A DNA stretch of 64,000 nucleotides from Synechococcus sp. MU1617 (lineage in GTDB: Bacteria; Cyanobacteriota; Cyanobacteriia; PCC-6307; Cyanobiaceae). The translations under genes were made by a program, and so were the position numbers. The stretch spans positions 1 through 64,000 of the forward strand of contig NZ_VTLB01000003.1 in NCBI RefSeq assembly GCF_020514235.1. The letters run 5' to 3'. This document shows positions 12,828 to 62,643 of this stretch, piece by piece (within the stretch, counting starts at the first letter, position 1; every line of letters begins with the position of its first letter). The notes beneath the pieces are model-generated. The model saw only the letters and a program-made list of their open reading frames with translations, did not search any database and was not told where the DNA came from.

Positions 12828-13532
12828 TCAGTTTTTCGGGAGCCGTTGCAGGTCGTCCACCAGTCCCATCACCACCAGCAGATGTCCCTCCTCCAGCACG
12901 TGGGATGCCGGTGGGTTCACCATCAGGCTGCTTTGTGGTCCCGCCGCCAGCACGTTGACCCTGAAGTTTTTGCGCAAATTCAGATCCCTGAGCGAGCGCC
13001 CCACAAAGGGTTCTGGAACCTTGATCTCCTCGATGCAGTGCTGTTCATCCAGGGCCAGCCGCTCCATCAGGTTGGGGCGCACCAGTTCCAGCCCCAGGCG
13101 CTCGCCCTGCATCCGCGAGGGAAAGATCACTCGGTCGGCCCCCACCCGCTTCAGCATTTTTTCGTGGAGGTCACTCGTTGCCCTCGCGATCACCTGGCGA
13201 ACGCGGCTCCCCTCGCTGTCTTTGGCGATCAAGGTCGCGGTGATGCTGGCTTCGATCGGTTCACTGATCGCCACCACAACAGTGCCCATTTCCAGCACGC
13301 CGGCTTCCCGCAGGGCCTCTTCGTCGGTGCAGTCCACGACGCGGGCCTCCACGCTGGGCTCCACTTGACGAAGTTCATCCACCGCTCGCTCTGAGCGGTC
13401 CACGGCCAGCACATCCGCTCCGTTCTGAAGCAGTTCCCGGCACACGGCGATGCCGAAACGGCCCACGCCGATGATCGCGAAGCCGAGGCGATCGCTGCCC
13501 TGGACCGGGCTCCACTGCCACCACTCCTTCAT
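12828..13532 (-). CDS. ktrA: KtrA/TrkA-type regulatory subunit of potassium uptake
   Basis: A 234-residue cytoplasmic RCK protein. The N-terminal Rossmann domain has GVGRFG (about residues 22-27) for nucleotide binding, followed by an acidic residue ending the second strand (LAVDRSE), and the C-terminal RCK_C domain begins near residue 150. It gates the KtrB channel encoded immediately upstream in the same direction. The pair constitutes Na+-dependent K+ uptake in cyanobacteria. Confidence 0.92.
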   Translation of the reverse strand: MKEWWQWSPVQGSDRLGFAIIGVGRFGIAVCRELLQNGADVLAVDRSERAVDELRQVEPSVEARVVDCTDEEALREAGVLEMGTVVVAISEPIEASITATLIAKDSEGSRVRQVIARATSDLHEKMLKRVGADRVIFPSRMQGERLGLELVRPNLMERLALDEQHCIEEIKVPEPFVGRSLRDLNLRKNFRVNVLAAGPQSSLMVNPPASHVLEEGHLLVVMGLVDDLQRLPKN

Positions 13533-13556
13533 CGCTGCCTCCCCCGCTGATCGCGC

Positions 13557-14972
13557 TCAGACATACAGATCCTCGCTGGGGTAACCGACTCGATTCTGGC
13601 GATTCATCTGGATTTGTTCCTGAGTCATCGCTTCCCAGATCGCACTCAGCAGCAAAAGGATGCCCAGTCGTCCCACAAACATTCCCACCATCAGCACCGC
13701 CTGGCCGAAACGGGGGAGTTCAACGGTTACCCCCAGATCCAAACCCACGGTGGCAAAGGCGGAGATGCAGGTGAACAGCATTTCCATAAAGGTGAACGAA
13801 TCCTTGCCGTTCAAATTGCTGGCGATGCTGATCAGCATCGCCATGGCCATCACGAACAGCAGGGAGCCCACCGTGATGCCGACGGCCCGCAGCACCACCT
13901 TGTCGCTGATACTTCTGTTGCGGATCACCACCACCTCCCGGCCCCGCAGGGTGGAGCGGGTGGCCGCCATCAAGGCCGCCACGGTGGTGGTCTTGATCCC
14001 ACCCCCGGTGCCGCCGGGGCTGGCCCCGATGAACATCAGCACCATCAGCAGCAGCAGGCTGGATTCGGTGACGGTGTCGAGCGAGAGCGGAACGGTGCTG
14101 AAGCCGGCTGTGCGTGCCGTGACGGATTTGAACAGTGCGGTGAGCCACCGCTCAGACAAGGGCATGCCAGCGAAGATCTCGCCCTGGTTCAACCATTCCG
14201 TCAGGGCCAGCCCCCCTGCTCCGAAGGCGATCAAGATCATGGTGGTGCGCAGCACCAGGCGGGAGTGCAGGCTCAGACGACGCCGGCCTTGCCGTCTGCG
14301 CAGCAGCTGCGTGCTCAGATCGCTGGTGACCCGCCATCCCAGGCCGCCTGCCACGATCAGCAGCATCACCACGGCATTCACAACGCCATTGCTGCGGTAG
14401 CGCTCGAGGCTGTCGCTCCAGAGTCCGAATCCCGCGTTGTTGTAAGCCGAGATGCTGTGGAACAGCGCAGCCCAGAGGCGTTCTGCGTGGTTGGGGATGT
14501 CATCGAAGCCGAAGTGATACAGGATCACGGCCCCCAGCAGGATCACCAGCGTCGCCGTCAGGGCAATGCCACGAAACGTGCGCCCGACGCCCCCCACGCC
14601 GAATTCATCCAGGGCCTGGCCCCGGTCCAGCCGGCGTCGCAGGGCTGTTCCTTGCACCACAAAGCCCTGCAGAAACGTGGTGATGGCCATCAGGCCAAGG
14701 CCCCCCGCCAGGATCATCAGGGCCAGCACCACCTGGCCGAAAGTCGTGAGATCGGTGCCGATGTCGATGATCGACAGCCCCGTCACGGTGATGGCTGATG
14801 TGGCTGTGAACAGAGCTTCCCAAAGCCCAACGCGGCTTGAGGAGCACAGCGGAGTGGCCAAAAGCAGCGTGCCGATCAGCACCACTAGCAATCCAGTCAC
14901 CACGGTGAACTGGGGAACCGTGAGCCGACGATGCCAGCCCTGGCTGCGTTCGATGGCCCTTCCGATCGGCAC
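13557..14972 (-). CDS. ktrB: KtrB-type potassium transporter membrane subunit
   Basis: A 471-residue TrkH/KtrB superfamily protein with about ten hydrophobic segments in four M1-P-M2 repeats. P-loop-like segments include TATSAITVTGLS, SISAYNNAGFGL, TARTAGFSTV and CISAFATVGLDLG; each has the selectivity-filter Gly expected for KtrB. Located in the plasma membrane. It is encoded 24 bases upstream of ktrA. Confidence 0.93.
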   Translation of the reverse strand: MPIGRAIERSQGWHRRLTVPQFTVVTGLLVVLIGTLLLATPLCSSSRVGLWEALFTATSAITVTGLSIIDIGTDLTTFGQVVLALMILAGGLGLMAITTFLQGFVVQGTALRRRLDRGQALDEFGVGGVGRTFRGIALTATLVILLGAVILYHFGFDDIPNHAERLWAALFHSISAYNNAGFGLWSDSLERYRSNGVVNAVVMLLIVAGGLGWRVTSDLSTQLLRRRQGRRRLSLHSRLVLRTTMILIAFGAGGLALTEWLNQGEIFAGMPLSERWLTALFKSVTARTAGFSTVPLSLDTVTESSLLLLMVLMFIGASPGGTGGGIKTTTVAALMAATRSTLRGREVVVIRNRSISDKVVLRAVGITVGSLLFVMAMAMLISIASNLNGKDSFTFMEMLFTCISAFATVGLDLGVTVELPRFGQAVLMVGMFVGRLGILLLLSAIWEAMTQEQIQMNRQNRVGYPSEDLYV

Positions 14973-34687: not shown

Positions 34688-35059
34688 TCAGGCCTGACGC
34701 GCTTTGGGCTTTTCTTTTTTGATCGCAGGCTCGGCGCAAACCCTCGGGATGCGTCGGGCTGTGGTGGTGATGGTGTCCTTACGCCGGAAGTCGTTGGTGT
34801 TGGCGACTTTGGCTTCATCCATCAAGGACCACAGCACGTCTTTGCAGAGACCGGGCAACCTGGAGTGATCCATCAGAGGATCGGCGAGCTCACGGGCCCT
34901 CGCGCATGCCTCCGTTGAGTTGTCGCGTGAACACGCGTAGGCGGCCTGTTCAATGCTGCGCAATTGATCCTTGCTAGGCCATGGCTCGAAGGGCTCAGCC
35001 GCGATTGCGGGACTGGCGATGGCGAGGAGCAGCAGAACGCGTGTGAGCTTGGAAGTCAT
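34688..35059 (-). CDS. Secreted Cys-containing hypothetical protein
   Basis: A 123-residue protein with a signal peptide (MTSKLTRVLLLLAIASPAIA). The mature sequence has four Cys (ACSRDN; EACARA; LCKDVL; VCAEP), probably two disulfides, and a Lys-rich tail. It resembles small secreted proteins common in marine Synechococcus, function unknown. The 215 bases upstream to 35275 hold nothing I can support. Confidence 0.7.
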   Translation of the reverse strand: MTSKLTRVLLLLAIASPAIAAEPFEPWPSKDQLRSIEQAAYACSRDNSTEACARARELADPLMDHSRLPGLCKDVLWSLMDEAKVANTNDFRRKDTITTTARRIPRVCAEPAIKKEKPKARQA

Positions 35060-35274: not shown

Positions 35275-37377
35275 CTACAACGGTTTGTAGGCCCAGAATT
35301 GATACATACTTTGAAAGGTCGATGGATTGTTGTTCTCGAATTCTCCCCAGTTGCTCAGTGAGGTTCCATTGCTGTCCTCTGGAAAATGGTGCTGGTAAGC
35401 AGTCTTGATGGATTTCGGAAGCATGAATCCACAAAACACTAATTTCTCGGCTGCTAAAAGTTCTTCCAGGGTCCTGGTGGTGAATTGATGCTCCTGAACG
35501 TGAAAGCAAAGGTCGCGGCACTCGGAGAGCGAATAGAAGTCATTCGCAAGGATTGATAGATCTTTTAGTTTATGCTGATTATCGTCAAAGACTTGCTTGC
35601 GAAAATCTCTGATGCCTGCCGGTGTGCTTTGAATGCTCAGGTTTTGGATCAGCTCTCGTGCTGCTGAGACTTTCTGTCTGGCAAGTTTGCTGTAGAGGCC
35701 GATCTTGAAATAGCCGCCGGGCTTCAGTTTGCTGTTGAGTGTTGCCAGCCCCTTGGCGGGATTTTGCATGTGATGCAGGACGCCGCTGCACTCAATCACG
35801 TCATAGACATTCTTGAGTTGATTGGCATCCAGAATGTCGAGTTGCTGGAGCAGAACATTATTCATGTTGTACTCCTGAGATTTTCTTGCTGCGTAGGCCA
35901 GGCTATTTTTGCTGATGTCAATGGCAGTGATTTGCGCATTTTTATAGCGACTGGCGTTGATCACTTGGTTTCCCGTTCCGCATCCGGCAATTAGGATCTT
36001 TGGGCTTGAGTTGAGTGAGAGTTCATTCGTGAACGCAAGATTTGCAATGGTTGTTTCTAAGGAGATGAACTCAGCTGTTGGTTTTGCGAAATGGGGATGA
36101 GTGTGGTCTGCATGTTTGTATCGAGGGTATGGATTTTCTTCGTACATTTGCTGGACTGCAGTTGAGATATCGTCGGTTACTTCCTCGCAGAGGCTGAGGC
36201 TCGCTTTGATGCTCTTCTCTGCTTCGACCTCGTTGTATTGGGTGTCGATGAAGGCTTTGCTCTCATCGCTGTTGATGGGGTATTTGCTGATTGCTTCTTG
36301 AGTTGTAAGGTCGTGGATGGGTGCATAGCAGCCAATCATGGGTAAATATCGATTGAAAAGCTTTTCGCTTTTCTTCGCTTCTGCGATCAGATCGTTGATC
36401 CATTTTTTTTCCTCGTCTGATTGCCAATAGACATATTCATTGAGGAAGCATTGTGTGGCCAGGGCTTCCAGGAGGAGTTGTAGTTGTGGTGTTATTGAGC
36501 TGTCGGTTCTGATGTGTACCAAGAATTCCTGCCTTAGGCGTGTGAGGAATTCCTCGATCTTTTGATGAGGCGGTATAAGTAACGTCAGTGATTTTCTAAA
36601 GATCCAGTCTGAGGCAAGGCGATGAAGGGCCTGATTCTGGTCTGTGATGATGGGGTTTGATTTGGCTGCTGTTTGTATGTCTTCAAGGTAGTCTTGAACG
36701 AAGAGTGTGCAGAGTTTGCGATGGGAGAAGTCTTCGCGATTGAGCAGTATTTCGTAGGCTTTTCTGGCGTGCTCTCTATTTAGTGGGTTGATCTTGATGT
36801 CGCTGGCAAGGCTTTTCAAGTTTTGTAGCGCTTCGATGTTGCTTTCATCGAGCTCGATGGCCTTGACGGTAGCTGTTAGCGCTTCATCTGTTTTTCCAAG
36901 GTCTCGATAAATGCTGCCCAGATTCATCTGGACAGTTGACGATCGATCGTCAAGATCGAGTGACTTTAATGTGAATTGAAGTGCTTGATCAAGCTTTCCG
37001 ATGTCCCGATATAGATTCCCAATATTGCTGTAGATCTGCGGGTCGTTCGGCTCGAACTCTATGGCCTGTTCGTAGTTTTCAAGGGCTTCTTGGATTCTGC
37101 CACTGTTCTTGCATATGATCCCGAGATTGCAAAAGACTGCGGGATCAGACGTTCCCGCATTGATCATTTTTTTGTAAAGCGACTCGGCTTCCCTGAGTCG
37201 ACCTGTCTGGTGTGAATAAATGGCTTGGTTGAACCATTTTTGAAAGTTCAGTTGCGGCTTTTTTGTTGATTTACTTGCTTTTCCATTTGCTGCTTCTCCA
37301 AATCCAGCCACTTCATTTCTCTTTGCTTGTTTGAGTTTAGAGCTGAGCCAGTGGTCTTCATCTCCTCTCCACCCCAT
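35275..37377 (-). CDS. TPR-repeat protein with C-terminal methyltransferase domain
   Basis: About 700 residues. Tetratricopeptide repeats occupy roughly residues 45-200 (with PAVFCNLGIICKNSGRIQEA-type repeats), a linker of about 200 residues follows, and a class I SAM-methyltransferase domain closes it: motif I ILIAGCGTGNQVI, IECSGVLHHMQNP, LKPGGYFKIGLYS. Such TPR-methyltransferases occur in glycan and surface-modification islands. The start is uncertain: ATG 37377 lies inside a repeated sequence that copies the end of the PLD-like gene, and the open frame extends up to 37458. AT-rich relative to neighbours. Confidence 0.75.
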   Translation of the reverse strand: MGWRGDEDHWLSSKLKQAKRNEVAGFGEAANGKASKSTKKPQLNFQKWFNQAIYSHQTGRLREAESLYKKMINAGTSDPAVFCNLGIICKNSGRIQEALENYEQAIEFEPNDPQIYSNIGNLYRDIGKLDQALQFTLKSLDLDDRSSTVQMNLGSIYRDLGKTDEALTATVKAIELDESNIEALQNLKSLASDIKINPLNREHARKAYEILLNREDFSHRKLCTLFVQDYLEDIQTAAKSNPIITDQNQALHRLASDWIFRKSLTLLIPPHQKIEEFLTRLRQEFLVHIRTDSSITPQLQLLLEALATQCFLNEYVYWQSDEEKKWINDLIAEAKKSEKLFNRYLPMIGCYAPIHDLTTQEAISKYPINSDESKAFIDTQYNEVEAEKSIKASLSLCEEVTDDISTAVQQMYEENPYPRYKHADHTHPHFAKPTAEFISLETTIANLAFTNELSLNSSPKILIAGCGTGNQVINASRYKNAQITAIDISKNSLAYAARKSQEYNMNNVLLQQLDILDANQLKNVYDVIECSGVLHHMQNPAKGLATLNSKLKPGGYFKIGLYSKLARQKVSAARELIQNLSIQSTPAGIRDFRKQVFDDNQHKLKDLSILANDFYSLSECRDLCFHVQEHQFTTRTLEELLAAEKLVFCGFMLPKSIKTAYQHHFPEDSNGTSLSNWGEFENNNPSTFQSMYQFWAYKPL

Positions 37378-37406
37378 CCCCGCATCGAGTCTTTTGACGA
37401 TCCAGT
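37298..37406 (-). repeat. Direct repeat copy A
   Basis: 109 bases matching 39210-39318 with about six mismatches by eye. It contains, on the minus strand, the last 15 codons of the PLD-like gene (LDRQKTRCGDGVERR, stop at 37358) plus about 60 bases of downstream sequence, so it is a displaced copy of that gene's 3' end. Confidence 0.9.
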
Positions 37407-37575
37407 CTCCCGAGCCAGGGGACAAGCCATCTGCGCGGACATCTCGTGGGATGTCCAAGAGGGGGATTTGGACTTATCCCTGAATCGATACAGTCCATTG
37501 GTGGAGGGTCGAGACAAGTACTTGCTCGATGCGCTCAGGAGACTGGCAGAGAAGAAGAGGCGTGGATTTAGGTAG
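37407..37575 (+). pseudogene. Possible remnant of an hsdM-type DNA methylase C-terminus
   Basis: Directly after repeat A, the plus strand reads ICADISWDVQEGDLDLSLNRY followed by a charged helical tail ending RRGFR and a TAG stop. The D-L-S-x-N-R-Y pattern is characteristic of the C-terminus of type I restriction-modification M subunits. No start, catalytic NPPF motif or partner subunits remain. It lies in antisense to the preferred TPR-methyltransferase upstream region. The identification rests on one short motif. Confidence 0.35.
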
Positions 37576-37670
37576 ATGCAATTACTAAGTGTGCGACTTA
37601 CGATGCAATAGTAAATTTGTATTTTTAAATGGCATGTACTTATTGTTGTTTTTCCTCGCCCTAGCACTAT

Positions 37671-38216
37671 TTATCTTGCGGTGAATCCAAGTATGGGCGC
37701 GATTCTTGTTTCGAGGTGTGAGTAGTAAGTTAAGTCTCCAAAGGACTTTTCAAGCAGGGTTTTTAATTCGCTTGTGTAGCCTTTGGCTCTTGTTATTATG
37801 TGTTTTGGTTTTAATTCGATTATGTGCTCAAGAAGTTTGAATCCGCTTCCCCTCGATTTTCTCTCTAGGTGTTGGTGAACTGCCAGATAAAAGATTGTGT
37901 CGAATTCTCCATCTAATGAATCTAAGTTCTCTTCTTGTGATAGATCAGATTCTATAATCCGAGTCTTGTTTTTCGGCAACATATGACTTAGTACTTCAAT
38001 GTTTTTTTTATCTAACTCAATGCACGTTATGTGAAGGCATCCTGCTTGAAGTGCTTGTATTCCAAGGTGACCTGTATTTGCTCCGATGTCAAGTATCCTC
38101 TTGTTGGCGCAAAAGTATTTCAGGGCTTGTAGGTCTTGAAGTCTTTCATGGCTTGACAGAAGCATGTCTTTCATTTGCTTAGTTGTAGCAATTATCATTG
38201 CCTCATTGTATATCAT
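37671..38216 (-). CDS. Class I SAM-dependent methyltransferase
   Basis: A 181-residue protein with motif I RILDIGANTGHLGIQAL (about residues 40-56), an acidic end to strand 2 (CIELDKKNIEVL), and strand 4 FDTIFYLAVHQHLERK. It is small, essentially just the Rossmann core. The substrate is unknown; a role in glycan or lipid decoration is inferred from its sulfotransferase and TPR-methyltransferase neighbours. AT-rich, with many TTT/AAA-type codons. An ATG at 38198 could be the true start. Confidence 0.75.
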   Translation of the reverse strand: MIYNEAMIIATTKQMKDMLLSSHERLQDLQALKYFCANKRILDIGANTGHLGIQALQAGCLHITCIELDKKNIEVLSHMLPKNKTRIIESDLSQEENLDSLDGEFDTIFYLAVHQHLERKSRGSGFKLLEHIIELKPKHIITRAKGYTSELKTLLEKSFGDLTYYSHLETRIAPILGFTAR

Positions 38217-38230
38217 GAAACTATTTGATT

Positions 38231-39166
38231 CTACTCAAACATCTGCGCCTTCATGATTCGATCGTAAAAGCCATATTGCTTGAGTGCCTGAGTGATTTCA
38301 TTTTCAATTCCCTGCTCTTGCTCTTTGGTGAATGGGAGTTTATTTTCTCTAGGGAAGTCGCGGAACGCATATTTGTCTTCTCCCTGTAGTCCCATCAAAG
38401 AGAAGATATCGTCAGATGCAAGCAGCTCCTGAAAGCCGAATGCTTTGACAAACGCATGCTGCTGAATTTGTTTGATGAATTCTTTGTGCATAGCCGGTGT
38501 CAATGCTGATGTGCCGGGGCAATGGCTTTCGAGAGTAATTTGTTTTTGGGTAAATTCAGTAGGGGACAAATCTCTTTCTCCTTGCATTGCCTGCCTTTGA
38601 AGAAATGTTCGTAAATATTTGGATCGTAAGTAGCTGATTGGCTCCCGCAGGCAAACTGAAACCAAGGCTTGCCTGCGGGTTGATTCTGATATGGCTTTGC
38701 AAGCTGAAATGTAAGCAAACGTTTGGTTGCTATCAATATGGCTTGATCTGCATACTAATGAAGCTGATGTGTCGCACAATCGTTCTGATGATATGACAGC
38801 AGGTTTGCCTGATTCGTTTGAGGCTTCTTCTATTAGCTTTATTGATTCTTTGAGAATTTTGAAATATGGATTTTCCCCTAGAGTGGATATTTGGCTGCCC
38901 GTTGAGAGAATTGCTGAGTTGATTATTAGTGAATTGAAAAAGTTTGTAGGCTCTTTCCTGGGGTCTATTGTTGAGAGCCAATTTAGTAGTGTTTCTGGAT
39001 TTGCCCCACCTGCTGATGGATTTGGATTTCCTTTTTTTCGTGTCCCAGATGCTTGGTAGGCTTCTTTTTGGAAAACCAAATAGTTTGCTGAGTTGGGTAG
39101 TAGATATTTTTGGATAACAGTTGTGCCTGTTCTTGGTGCTCCAATATGAATAACAGTTTCATGCAT
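38231..39166 (-). CDS. Sulfotransferase family protein
   Basis: A 311-residue protein with the PAPS 5'-phosphosulfate-binding loop at its N-terminus (IHIGAPRTGTTVIQKYL, about residues 6-22) and a later CLREPISYLRSKYLR segment fitting the 3'-phosphate-binding motif. It would transfer sulfate to a glycan or small molecule. ATG at 39166 gives the expected short N-terminus; the frame is open upstream through repeat B to 39397, which is a repeat artefact. AT-rich; part of the repeat-bounded cassette. Confidence 0.8.
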   Translation of the reverse strand: MHETVIHIGAPRTGTTVIQKYLLPNSANYLVFQKEAYQASGTRKKGNPNPSAGGANPETLLNWLSTIDPRKEPTNFFNSLIINSAILSTGSQISTLGENPYFKILKESIKLIEEASNESGKPAVISSERLCDTSASLVCRSSHIDSNQTFAYISACKAISESTRRQALVSVCLREPISYLRSKYLRTFLQRQAMQGERDLSPTEFTQKQITLESHCPGTSALTPAMHKEFIKQIQQHAFVKAFGFQELLASDDIFSLMGLQGEDKYAFRDFPRENKLPFTKEQEQGIENEITQALKQYGFYDRIMKAQMFE

Positions 39167-39209
39167 AAAATCTATGCCCTTTAGGTTTATTTTAATCCAT
39201 CTGGCATTA

Positions 39210-39318
39210 CCGAATCCAGCTACTTCATTTCTCTTTGCTTGTTTGAGTTTAGAGCTGAGCCATTGGTCTTCATCTCCTCTCCACCCCATCGCCGCATCGA
39301 ATCTTTTGACGCTCCAGT
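39210..39318 (-). repeat. Direct repeat copy B
   Basis: The partner of copy A, offset by 1,912 bases. It comprises the genuine 3' end of the PLD-like gene (its stop lies at 39270) and about 60 bases beyond. Confidence 0.9.
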
Positions 39319-40679
39319 TTGCGTTGGATCCGTGGTGTGATCCCCAGCTCAGCGCTGTCCCAGAGGCGATCCATCTCACGGGTGAAATGCGCAGCAAGCT
39401 TGGCGGAGTGAATCACCAGCAGCGTTTCGTCGTTGGTGTGAGCAGCGGAGGGGGACCAATTGAAGGATCCCGTGATCACTTTGCGCTGATCGATCACTGC
39501 GAACTTGTGGTGGAGCTTGTCGCCGCGGGCGAGACGAGGGGTGCCGATTCCTTTCAGGCCCTGCTGCAGCGGGTGATTGCCAGCTTCCACCTTGCAGCTG
39601 TGATCTGGAAGGGTGACCCCCAGGAGATCGAGCACTTCCGAGAAGGGGCGGCTGGCAAAGCCAGGATCCGCAACCAGTCTGAACTCAACGCCTCGCTCGA
39701 TCTGGTCCCGCAGCACGTTGGTGAGTTGCTGTGCAGAGAACACAAACAGGGCCATATCAATGCGCTCTCGTGCCGCTTCCAACTGGTCAGCCAACAGGTT
39801 CAGCCCGTGATTTGCATCTCTTTTCGGATGGGGGGAGAACAGCGCATCCACTCGGGTGCCACCGATCTGCACGGTTTGCACGCCTTCTTTTGCTTTCTGC
39901 AGGCCAAAGCGACTGTCCTGCTCGCCACCGGGGCCATCCCCCCACATCTGGGTGAATTCCTTGCGGAACACCAGTGCGAGCTCAGGGCTGTGGAACCGCA
40001 GCAGGTGATTCACGTTGCCGCGGCTGGATGGCCGGCCAGCATCACCGTGAAGGCCGGAACTGGTGAGATTGGCGCTGCCCGTAATCACCGTTGTTTGATC
40101 GATCACCAGAAATTTGTGGTGCATCAAGCCGCTGCCGCTGCTCCCGTCTTCGGTGTCGTCAATCAGTGGAATCTGCGCGGCTTGAAGGAGCGCCACGGCA
40201 TCAGCGTGGAAGGCTTCTTCCGGACTCGTGCTGCCATCCCCATTGCTGTCGGCCAGGCGGTTCAACTGATCCCAGCGCTGCCTGCCTCGCTGGTTCAATC
40301 GGCTGGGTCGTTGTTCGCTCCAGGCTTGGCTGTAGCTGTTCTCCAGGATGACGGCAATGCGAACACCACGGTTCTCGGCTGCGATGAGGGCCTCGGCAAT
40401 CCTTGGAAGACTGAGCTCTTGCACGGCCACCAGCACCTCGTCGTTGGCGGCATCAATGGCTTCAATCAGCCATGCCTCCATGTCGTCACCATTGCGCCAG
40501 TCGCCTGTGAGGGGTGAGCGGTAGCGCGATCTGGCGTTGTGGTTGAAGACCACATCGATCTGCTTGGGCATCGCTAGATCTGCCGGAGCCGTGCCCACCA
40601 CCGATCCCGCCTGGCTGCAGCCACTGCAGAGAAGAGCCGCTGCCATCCATCCCAGCTTGCTCTTCAGCATCGAGACCAA
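39270..40679 (-). CDS. Phospholipase D-like lipoprotein with EF-hand loop
   Basis: A 469-residue exported lipoprotein (hydrophobic signal with Cys at about 18-21). Two HKD motifs are intact: HHKFLVID (His187, Lys189, Asp194) and HHKFAVID (His390, Lys392, Asp397), both followed by the GSxN motif. Between the first N-terminal half and HKD1, DSNGDGSTSPEE (residues 144-155) forms a canonical calcium-binding EF-hand loop. PLD-fold enzymes hydrolyse phosphodiesters; the substrate is unknown. Its 3' end is duplicated at 37298-37406. Confidence 0.88.
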   Translation of the reverse strand: MVSMLKSKLGWMAAALLCSGCSQAGSVVGTAPADLAMPKQIDVVFNHNARSRYRSPLTGDWRNGDDMEAWLIEAIDAANDEVLVAVQELSLPRIAEALIAAENRGVRIAVILENSYSQAWSEQRPSRLNQRGRQRWDQLNRLADSNGDGSTSPEEAFHADAVALLQAAQIPLIDDTEDGSSGSGLMHHKFLVIDQTTVITGSANLTSSGLHGDAGRPSSRGNVNHLLRFHSPELALVFRKEFTQMWGDGPGGEQDSRFGLQKAKEGVQTVQIGGTRVDALFSPHPKRDANHGLNLLADQLEAARERIDMALFVFSAQQLTNVLRDQIERGVEFRLVADPGFASRPFSEVLDLLGVTLPDHSCKVEAGNHPLQQGLKGIGTPRLARGDKLHHKFAVIDQRKVITGSFNWSPSAAHTNDETLLVIHSAKLAAHFTREMDRLWDSAELGITPRIQRKLERQKIRCGDGVERR

Positions 40680-62561: not shown

Positions 62562-62643
62562 GCGGATGTGGTGGAATTGGTAGACACGCACGTTTGAGGG
62601 GCGTGTGGCTTCGGCCTTGCGAGTTCAAGTCTCGCCATCCGCA
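62562..62643 (+). tRNA. tRNA-Leu (anticodon GAG)
   Basis: 82 bases folding as a class II tRNA. The acceptor GCGGATG pairs with CATCCGC (62636-62642) with discriminator A. D arm GGTGGAATTGGTAGAC, anticodon stem CACGT/GCGTG with loop TTGAGGG, a long variable arm (GGCTTCGGCC), and T arm with GTTCAAGTC. The 3' CCA is not encoded. Confidence 0.95.

Follow-up and report, generated by a model that had tools for sequence, protein, structure and literature searches.

A repeat-flanked gene cassette in Synechococcus sp. MU1617 is very probably the remnant of an island integrated into a PLD-like gene

The window analysed here, a stretch of 64,000 nucleotides from contig NZ_VTLB01000003.1 of Synechococcus sp. 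MU1617 (assembly GCF_020514235.1; genome G000 in the following), contains a locus that is very probably the decayed remnant of an integrative island, belonging to a clade of tyrosine integrases that is specific for a PLD-like gene. As expected of such a remnant, the window shows a duplicated PLD 3' end, AT-rich cargo enclosed by the two copies and the N-terminal fragment of an integrase; the integrase itself, both island edges and empty sites can be recognized, judging by sequence, in its relatives. The locus exposes a widespread integration hotspot, and the cargo found at this same spot differs greatly among relatives.

The direct repeat and the genes it encloses

The locus comprises the following features:

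39270..40679, minus strand: the target gene, full length, for a PLD-like lipoprotein whose two HKD motifs lie at codons 187 and 390; PF13091, E 4.5e-46, homologues aligned to the gene end
39490..39506, minus strand: putative attachment core AAGTTCGCAGTGATCGA in the second HKD motif (HHKFAVID), the shortest stretch from which the relatives' island edges agree
39210..39318, minus strand: left repeat copy, made up of the PLD 3' end and stop, a leader of 60 nt and VAGFG codons that are vestigial (GTA replacing the GTG start)
38231..39166, minus strand: cargo gene, sulfotransferase-like by P-loop motif only, without family match
37671..38216, minus strand: cargo gene for a small methyltransferase (PF13649, E 5.4e-7)
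37393..37578, plus strand: integrase remnant, approximately residues 35-96, aligned to integrases
37392..37406, plus strand: 15-nt near-match (14/15) between integrase remnant and PLD 3' end, a putative deletion junction that stops at the repeat edge
37298..37406, minus strand: right repeat copy, with the displaced remnant of the PLD 3' end (~16 codons) and the leader and start of the TPR-methyltransferase gene
35275..37311, minus strand: TPR-repeat methyltransferase gene with a likely GTG start (MAGFG...)
34688..35059, minus strand: small conserved gene by which the hotspot's right flank is recognized in relatives

The initial annotation had described two 109-base repeats, about 94% identical with six mismatches and 1,912 bases apart, each consisting of the 3' codons and stop of the PLD gene and about 60 nt downstream, with AT-rich genes between them, and our measurements agree on all these points. 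The copies (37298-37406 and 39210-39318) align over 109 nt without gaps and are identical at 103 positions (94.5%), with a start-to-start distance of 1,912 bp; in a blastn search of their own genome, this match has an E-value of 2e-43, and four other matches all have E-values of at least 0.49. The copy at 39210-39318 holds 49 nt of the PLD reading frame, including its TGA stop (39272-39270), and 60 nt downstream, and the repeat also extends over the leader of the TPR-methyltransferase gene downstream and its initial codons (GTG start, MAGFG). Matches to PLD reach query codon 465-469 in 23 of the 27 genomes of the genus (G000 included) that have a PLD match, so that the repeat's PLD part represents the gene's native 3' end. 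The idea that the repeat is a leader common to GFG-type TPR genes was dropped, since the PLD alignments extend to the gene end and identify the first half as PLD's own.

The GC content is 41.3% between the repeats versus 60.1% in PLD and 60.1% in the window. One of the enclosed genes had been annotated as a sulfotransferase, a label that is only partly borne out: we assume it to be plausible from a P-loop-like GAPRTGTT stretch, but for the product of 38231..39166, Pfam, NCBIfam and the PDB sequences gave no match, and neither did a profile search of the latter. Its structure prediction from five sequences reached a mean pLDDT of 50.5. Conservation of this gene is much higher in its 3' third than in the 5' part, and its relatives in G030 (first copy), G015 and G017 sit after a PLD 3' end. 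The small methyltransferase (37671..38216) was found in G000 alone among the 34 genomes of the genus searched, G000 included. No tRNA gene lies within 20 kb of the locus in the window, whose single tRNA gene is at 62562-62643.

A tyrosine integrase remnant

The locus had been thought to carry an hsdM-like remnant and to be devoid of an integrase. Both views had to be revised, as the supposed methylase remnant (37393-37578) represents the N-terminal part of a tyrosine integrase: it aligns in frame with the integrase N-terminus (residues 35-96), is 69% identical to an integrase fragment (E 2.6e-22) and yields no Pfam match at E-values up to 1, methylase families included. The hsdM label was dropped after this alignment. 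The open frames matched by the remnant encode ~354-392 aa; full-length relatives match PF00589 in 3/3 and PHROG integrases in 2/2 tested cases, and the catalytic residues R210, K251, R324, H347 and Y356 are invariant in all nine aligned integrase relatives. No intact integrase is left in the remnant's own genome. The remnant lies beside the PLD 3' copy, in the place and orientation expected from better-preserved islands, and apparently ends at the same truncation point in G000 as in G015.

Islands at the PLD-like gene in relatives

At loci L126-L137 of other genera, integrase genes or fragments lie antisense and 141-186 bp from a second PLD 3' copy in 14 of 15 cases, the single exception being a second fragment in L127. 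Locus L145 (G057), which stands outside this count, has one integrase piece 165 bp from a PLD 3' copy and another at a distance of 122 bp from a stretch that matches PLD residues 364-430 weakly (43%). The partial PLD copy that adjoins the integrase in relatives begins at codon ~358-392, and the full PLD gene is found on the other side of the island at 7 of 12 loci, being cut by the end of the stretch in two and lying beyond it in three. The left and right island edges of the relatives agree from AAGTTCGC onwards, and in some islands already from ~40 bp before the core. From these edges, the crossover appears to be the DNA coding for PLD's second HKD motif (HHKFAVID) at codon ~392, with the island supplying the rest of the gene. 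The 109-bp unit itself was considered as the attachment site and dropped, because the shared stretch starts ~190 bp or more further upstream in the relatives. Several islands have a TGGCTY-repeat arm after PLD; the control for this arm motif was a single-base shuffle of related sequences. A third conserved small island gene (A4) aligns poorly in its distant rows.

At least two PLD 3' ends occur in 18 of 33 genomes with an integrase match versus 7 of 367 without one (Fisher p 5e-17, uncorrected for kinship and presuming that both searches drew the same 400 genomes). The exceptions are these seven genomes, with several PLD ends and no integrase match, and 15 genomes with an integrase match and a single or no PLD end, carriers of a sister clade of integrases among them. 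G015 and G030 show a similar order to that in the window, with a longer right edge, and in G017, a PLD 3' end with a relative of the cargo is located on a different contig from PLD. No tRNA genes are found in the PLD-island loci L126-L137.

The choice of target gene agrees with the integrase tree, in which the two clades score 100/100. None of the eight sister-clade copies lies 141-186 bp from a PLD 3' copy; their target is a methylpurine-DNA glycosylase gene, named by Pfam in L139 and L143 only, so that the group's label in the tree is partly inferred. A repeat is present upstream of the integrase in six of the seven sister-clade copies in the tree; L141 has only 338 nt of flank.

Empty sites

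The initial view that the duplicated PLD 3' end marks an insertion of foreign genes is supported by four genomes of the same genus (G002, G023, G033 and G012), in which an empty site with a single repeat copy is found and PLD is followed by the TPR-methyltransferase gene. In G008 and G004, PLD adjoins the right-flank gene, without a TPR-methyltransferase gene. In 23 loci, 47 to 12,148 bp separate PLD from the conserved gene that comes next, and the loci of the relatives exclude a common gene order without any empty site. A tree of two flanking genes did not separate island gain from loss. PLD is interrupted in several genomes, including the empty-site genomes G002 and G023; keeping it whole can therefore not always matter.

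Origin of the locus

We propose that a tyrosine integrase recombined the attachment site of an island with the DNA coding for the second HKD motif of the PLD-like gene. This integration would have swapped PLD's last ~77 codons for an island-borne equivalent, such that PLD could stay whole, and moved the original PLD 3' end across the island to its distant edge, next to the integrase gene; the junction of the excised island circle would contain AAGTTCGCNGTNATCGA. A deletion via the 15-nt near-match may then have taken out PLD codons ~393-452 together with the attachment arm and the beginning of the integrase gene; what stayed behind would be the 109-bp repeat and an island probably unable to move alone. 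The right edge in the window looks like the scar of such a deletion, joining integrase to PLD through the near-match, and the 109-bp repeat is what erosion left. A repeat-mediated swap of possible surface-glycan genes, as initially suggested, is not supported as the primary mechanism, given that relatives show site-specific integration at PLD codon ~392, well upstream of the repeat; homologous recombination may have acted later at the locus.

Several observations speak against the island reading, among them the interrupted PLD genes, the genomes in which integrase match and multiple PLD ends do not coincide, the edges that agree from ~40 bp before the core, the closer likeness of the two repeats to each other than to G002 and the loss of any intact integrase from the own genome. 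The left copy, moreover, is no typical left edge: where a TGGCTY-repeat arm would be expected, it has the TPR-methyltransferase leader. This leader and the first codons could stem from a second island of the same family, which the island landed in or carried in tandem, with a later loss of the TPR gene. Such tandem islands are the best account of the unexpected leader, albeit an unproven one that we put forward less firmly than the rest.

The same leader is also what homologous recombination alone might have produced, a possible but on balance improbable course of events. Here, the cargo would have arrived by transformation or transduction, anchored in shared PLD and TPR-methyltransferase DNA and with an illegitimate join on the left, so that leader and five codons fit a retained PLD-leader-TPR start of the recipient, to which foreign DNA was joined; the integrase fragment would be a passenger from an older island elsewhere. 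Consistent with this, the repeats are closer to each other (94.5%) than either is to G002 (89.0 and 85.3%), which also fits a duplication within the lineage, the sulfotransferase-like gene with its conserved 3' third and divergent 5' part resembles a mosaic, and the apparently common truncation of the integrase in G000 and G015 suggests that a decayed cassette may have spread. By itself, however, this course leaves unexplained why the integrase fragment lies beside the PLD 3' copy in the very place and orientation seen in better-preserved islands. If the PLD 3' end and TPR leader had been duplicated in tandem long ago and unrelated genes had since drifted in between the copies, this would account for two related copies that differ at 6 of 109 positions, but such a history is highly improbable, as it is contradicted by the four same-genus genomes with one copy and no cassette, and as the cargo is AT-rich and patchy and the integrase fragment abuts the right copy. 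Least credible of all is the insertion of an hsdM-bearing restriction-modification island, for which the Eco57I-type methylase among the PLD-site genes of G005 could be cited, and which the in-frame alignment of the remnant to integrase residues 35-96 and the lack of a methylase family match contradict.

A possible link to phages

Eight of the ten better-preserved islands encode a homologue of the N-terminal half of the T4-like cyanophage primase; these proteins of 131-214 aa match only that half of gp61. The gene hints at a dependence of the islands on phages. All relatives of the integrase in 50,697 phage records have less than 60% identity, as do those in plasmid records, and a scan of viral contigs with short peptide patterns gave one distant match (26%). 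As a conjecture that we consider unlikely to hold in full, the PLD-site islands and the methylpurine-DNA glycosylase sister clade might be phage-dependent elements of marine and freshwater picocyanobacteria, which enter enzyme genes by recombination at conserved codons and employ the stand-alone homologue of the gp61 N-terminal half to replicate, or to disturb the phage, upon cyanomyovirus infection. The window locus would then be a domesticated fossil that keeps only cargo.

Relation to known integrative elements

Tycheposons reportedly go back to Hackl et al. 2023. PMC10872708 and PMC10187409 describe them as tyrosine-recombinase elements that carry cargo in marine bacteria, initially Prochlorococcus, and are bordered by a tRNA gene; unlike them, the PLD islands have no border tRNA, neither at L126-L137 nor at the window locus, a comparison by description and not by integrase sequence. 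The picocyanobacterial integrase family outlined in PMC10187409 is located upstream of tRNA-Phe or tRNA-Cys and was missed by the models used there. Like this family, the PLD-type enzymes are tyrosine integrases in Synechococcus and Prochlorococcus islands with variable cargo, but they match PF00589 and lie in protein genes, again compared by description only. PICMI phage satellites, as sketched in PMC10803314, are likewise small integrase elements of marine bacteria with a primase gene; they are inserted beside fis and depend on alpA and a primase, whereas PLD islands have only the homologue of the gp61 N-terminal half and no full primase by the integrase. The closest parallel may be the dusA-specific genomic islands, which integrate in the 5' end of dusA according to Farrugia et al. 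(2015; PMC4482086). In both cases, a conserved part of a protein gene is cut, one end is replaced by an island equivalent, and the displaced end forms the repeat; differences lie in the target (the codons of PLD's second HKD motif, ~392), the picocyanobacterial hosts and the decay of the copy in the window. By this comparison, the working mode seems to be that of known islands in protein genes, of the dusA type, with a target that we did not find described: in a literature search, no title or abstract opening among the matches listed names PLD as an integration target in cyanobacteria.

What began as an odd repeat becomes a mapped integration hotspot in abundant photosynthetic bacteria, with one integrase clade and one short target in a catalytic motif. 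The hotspot comes with a gene end, supplied by the island, that can preserve an intact host gene, with both filled and empty sites, and with islands ranging from near-complete to fossil, which makes gene gain testable for Synechococcus islands that do not sit at tRNA genes. If the primase-like gene truly links the islands to T4-like cyanophages, it would also suggest how they travel between cells.

A repeat of the PLD gene end

The two direct repeats of about 94% identity described in the initial annotation are borne out: 103 of their 109 nt are identical, and a search of the strain's own 2.32-Mb genome (G000) revealed no further copy, the four other matches all having E >= 0.49. The repeats and their surroundings are as follows.

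34688-35059, minus strand: conserved small gene, right flank
35275-37311, minus strand: TPR-repeat methyltransferase gene
37298-37406: copy 1, the right repeat
37393-37578: remnant next to copy 1
37671-38216: small methyltransferase gene
38231-39166: sulfotransferase-like gene
39210-39318: copy 2, the left repeat
39270-40679, minus strand: PLD-like lipoprotein gene (PLD), with two HKD motifs

In minus-strand reading, copy 2 comprises the final 49 nt of PLD, including its TGA, and 60 nt past the stop. This is the native end of the gene, since same-genus PLD proteins align through it (23 of the 27 genomes with a PLD match). Copy 1 stands ahead of the TPR-repeat methyltransferase gene; GTG 37311 (MAGFG) is the likely start codon of that gene. 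At the corresponding codon copy 2 has GTA, and the cargo gene behind it therefore probably starts at ATG 39166. The stretch between the repeats is AT-rich, as had been noted (41.3% GC, against 60.1% for both PLD and the window).

The empty site that had been proposed as a check exists: in G002, G023, G033 and G012 the TPR-methyltransferase gene follows directly on PLD and there is a single repeat copy, to which the cassette of the window maps with both its ends. G008 and G004 lack the TPR gene as well, leaving about 50 bp between the end of PLD and the right-flank gene. As to gain in G000 versus loss in the empty-site genomes, a tree of the two flanking genes is weakly resolved near G000.

An integrase remnant and its full-length relatives

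The remnant had been labelled hsdM-like and the locus described as lacking an integrase; neither holds, as the remnant, which adjoins copy 1, matches an integrase in frame (69% identity over residues 35-96, E 2.6e-22). In the relatives examined, its counterpart opens a protein whose first residues are MLKKPPRVRDNNGALQVRLRLDGRDHFINRLGRWDDPVAQARAQAICAEIW (frame from G005). A search with this frame yields matches in 33 of 400 family genomes, including the window's, where the remnant is the only one; among the matches in other genera are uninterrupted frames of about 354-392 aa. Two frames from PLD-associated islands and one from a sister clade match PF00589, and both PLD-island frames also match PHROG integrases. 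Invariant in 9/9 aligned integrases are R, K, R, H and Y, which were set by eye against the residues that PMC10187409 gives for lambda integrase.

Twelve loci of relatives (L126-L137) hold better-preserved islands. A partial PLD 3' copy lies 141-186 bp from an antisense integrase gene or fragment in 14 of 15 cases, the sole exception being a second fragment (residues 65-141) in L127. The full PLD is on the side opposite the integrase in seven loci, is cut by the stretch end in two (L132, L137) and falls outside the fetched stretch in three (L126, L131, L136). In G005 (twice), G015, G020 and G030, extra PLD ends likewise have the integrase remnant known from the window beside them. L131 (G144:C1:1324000-1343900) is a tandem array of two integrases and four PLD 3' ends within 20 kb; the G144 genome has five PLD-end matches.

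When the left and right island edges are printed next to empty sites, all three are alike from AAGTTCGCNGTNATCGA on, which encodes K-F-A-V-I-D of the second HKD motif (HHKFAVID, codon 390); upstream of it, right edges are island sequence. Because agreement starts about 40 bp earlier in G291, G235, G332 and G324 and in the pieces in G005, G015, G020 and G030, this 17-bp stretch is, on these alignments, the minimum that all share and should not be read as a measured crossover point. TGGCTT/TGGCTC repeats flank the site on both sides (P side, 19 vs 0.9 in single-base shuffles; P' side, 16 vs 0.3; ten and eleven related sequences) and look like candidate integrase arm sites.

Origin of the window's version

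In G015 and G030, PLD is followed in turn by a sulfotransferase-like gene, an integrase fragment, a PLD end of ~100 codons and a TPR gene, the last differing in G030 from the window's. The integrase truncation point is apparently common to G015 and the window. The window's right PLD end has only ~16 codons, and its edge, 37406, coincides with a 15-nt stretch matching PLD's own end at 14/15; a deletion joining integrase codon ~35 to PLD codon ~453 would have shaped this edge. The PLD stop is followed by arm repeats in several islands, and in the window by the TPR leader with five codons from a TPR gene. Copies 1 and 2 are closer to one another than to G002. Either of two events would account for the left copy: tandem islands whose first cargo gene was lost later, given that every island unit starts with a PLD end and leader, or homologous recombination on one side. 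What the window preserves is a fossil site-specific island, and elements of this kind are known.

Cargo genes and the state of PLD

The small methyltransferase gene occurs in G000 only (1/34 genus genomes), and the sulfotransferase-like gene has six matches across 5/34. Those in G000, G015, G017 and the first in G030 lie behind a PLD 3' end; none was seen preceding the second in G030 or that in G007 (34% identity). In G017 the gene and its PLD 3' end (L087:8042-9171, G017:C9) are on a different contig from PLD, and a nearby gene, whose start resembles that of a serine recombinase, may encode such an enzyme. Family and structure searches gave no confirmation of the sulfotransferase label, and fold prediction was poor. 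The gene is a mosaic, its 3' third (window 38231-38520; L066, L082, L087) being far more conserved among relatives than its 5' part, as if the 3' end had been repeatedly exchanged. Other hotspot genes include an Eco57I-type methylase of 1,048 aa in G005 (L080:5471-8617) and a 2,379-aa open frame in G007 (L072:4660-11799).

The PLD frame itself is interrupted in several genomes, among them G002 (L063), G013 (L065), G004 (L069), G023 (L079), G024 (L081) and G015 (L082), so that any benefit of restoring PLD is not general; in some species PLD looks dispensable or in decay. The best NCBIfam scores of the window's PLD protein, below cut-off, are to DrmC and the NucT nuclease. Its activity may be that of a nuclease and not of a lipase.

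A primase-like gene

A zinc-ribbon protein of 131-214 aa is encoded in 8/10 island units whose integrase is complete or nearly so (L126, L127, L128, whose integrase is broken by stops, L129, L131 twice, L132, L133, L136, L137); among these ten it was not found in the two units of G144. Five of six tested match PHROG 47, DNA primase. One has matches in 505 phage records, of which 372 bear the name Synechococcus phage, and in phage syn9 the match spans about the first 170 of the 328 residues of the primase gp61. By sequence, the islands' protein appears to be a stand-alone counterpart of the N-terminal half of gp61, the T4-like cyanophage primase, a hint that the islands may depend on phages. 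Its gene was not found in G000, and the phage and viral collections searched contained no close relatives of the integrase. Positions in alignment A3 include:

L126:1959-2408, primase-like gene
L133:7838-8482, primase-like gene
L136:9021-9596, primase-like gene

Spread of the hotspot

An 80-residue PLD end is present in 199/400 family genomes, 25 of which have two or more matches (counted from the rows of that search). Taking both searches to cover the same 400 genomes, several PLD ends occur in 18/33 genomes with an integrase match vs 7/367 without (G017, G019, G185, G244, G251, G286, G306; Fisher p 5e-17, kinship ignored). The gap from PLD to the next conserved gene ranges from 47 to 12,148 bp at the 23 loci where a single fetched stretch contained both genes; 18 of these are from the genus, counting G000, and 5 from elsewhere.

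In a tree of 16 integrases, a PLD clade (9) and a sister clade (7) are split with 100/100 support. None of eight sister-clade copies (L138-L144) has a PLD match beside it. A repeat lies upstream of the integrase in 6/7 sister-clade tree members (best pieces 82-98% identical) and falls within a methylpurine-DNA glycosylase gene in both loci tested, which suggests that this clade targets that gene and leaves a truncated copy beside the integrase:

L139:8508-8864 and 13349-14149, methylpurine-DNA glycosylase target
L143:15228-15947, methylpurine-DNA glycosylase target

Among the papers listed by the literature searches, we found no title or abstract opening describing PLD as an integration target in cyanobacteria. 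It is the hotspot and its island family, rather than the repeat itself, that would be of interest to specialists.
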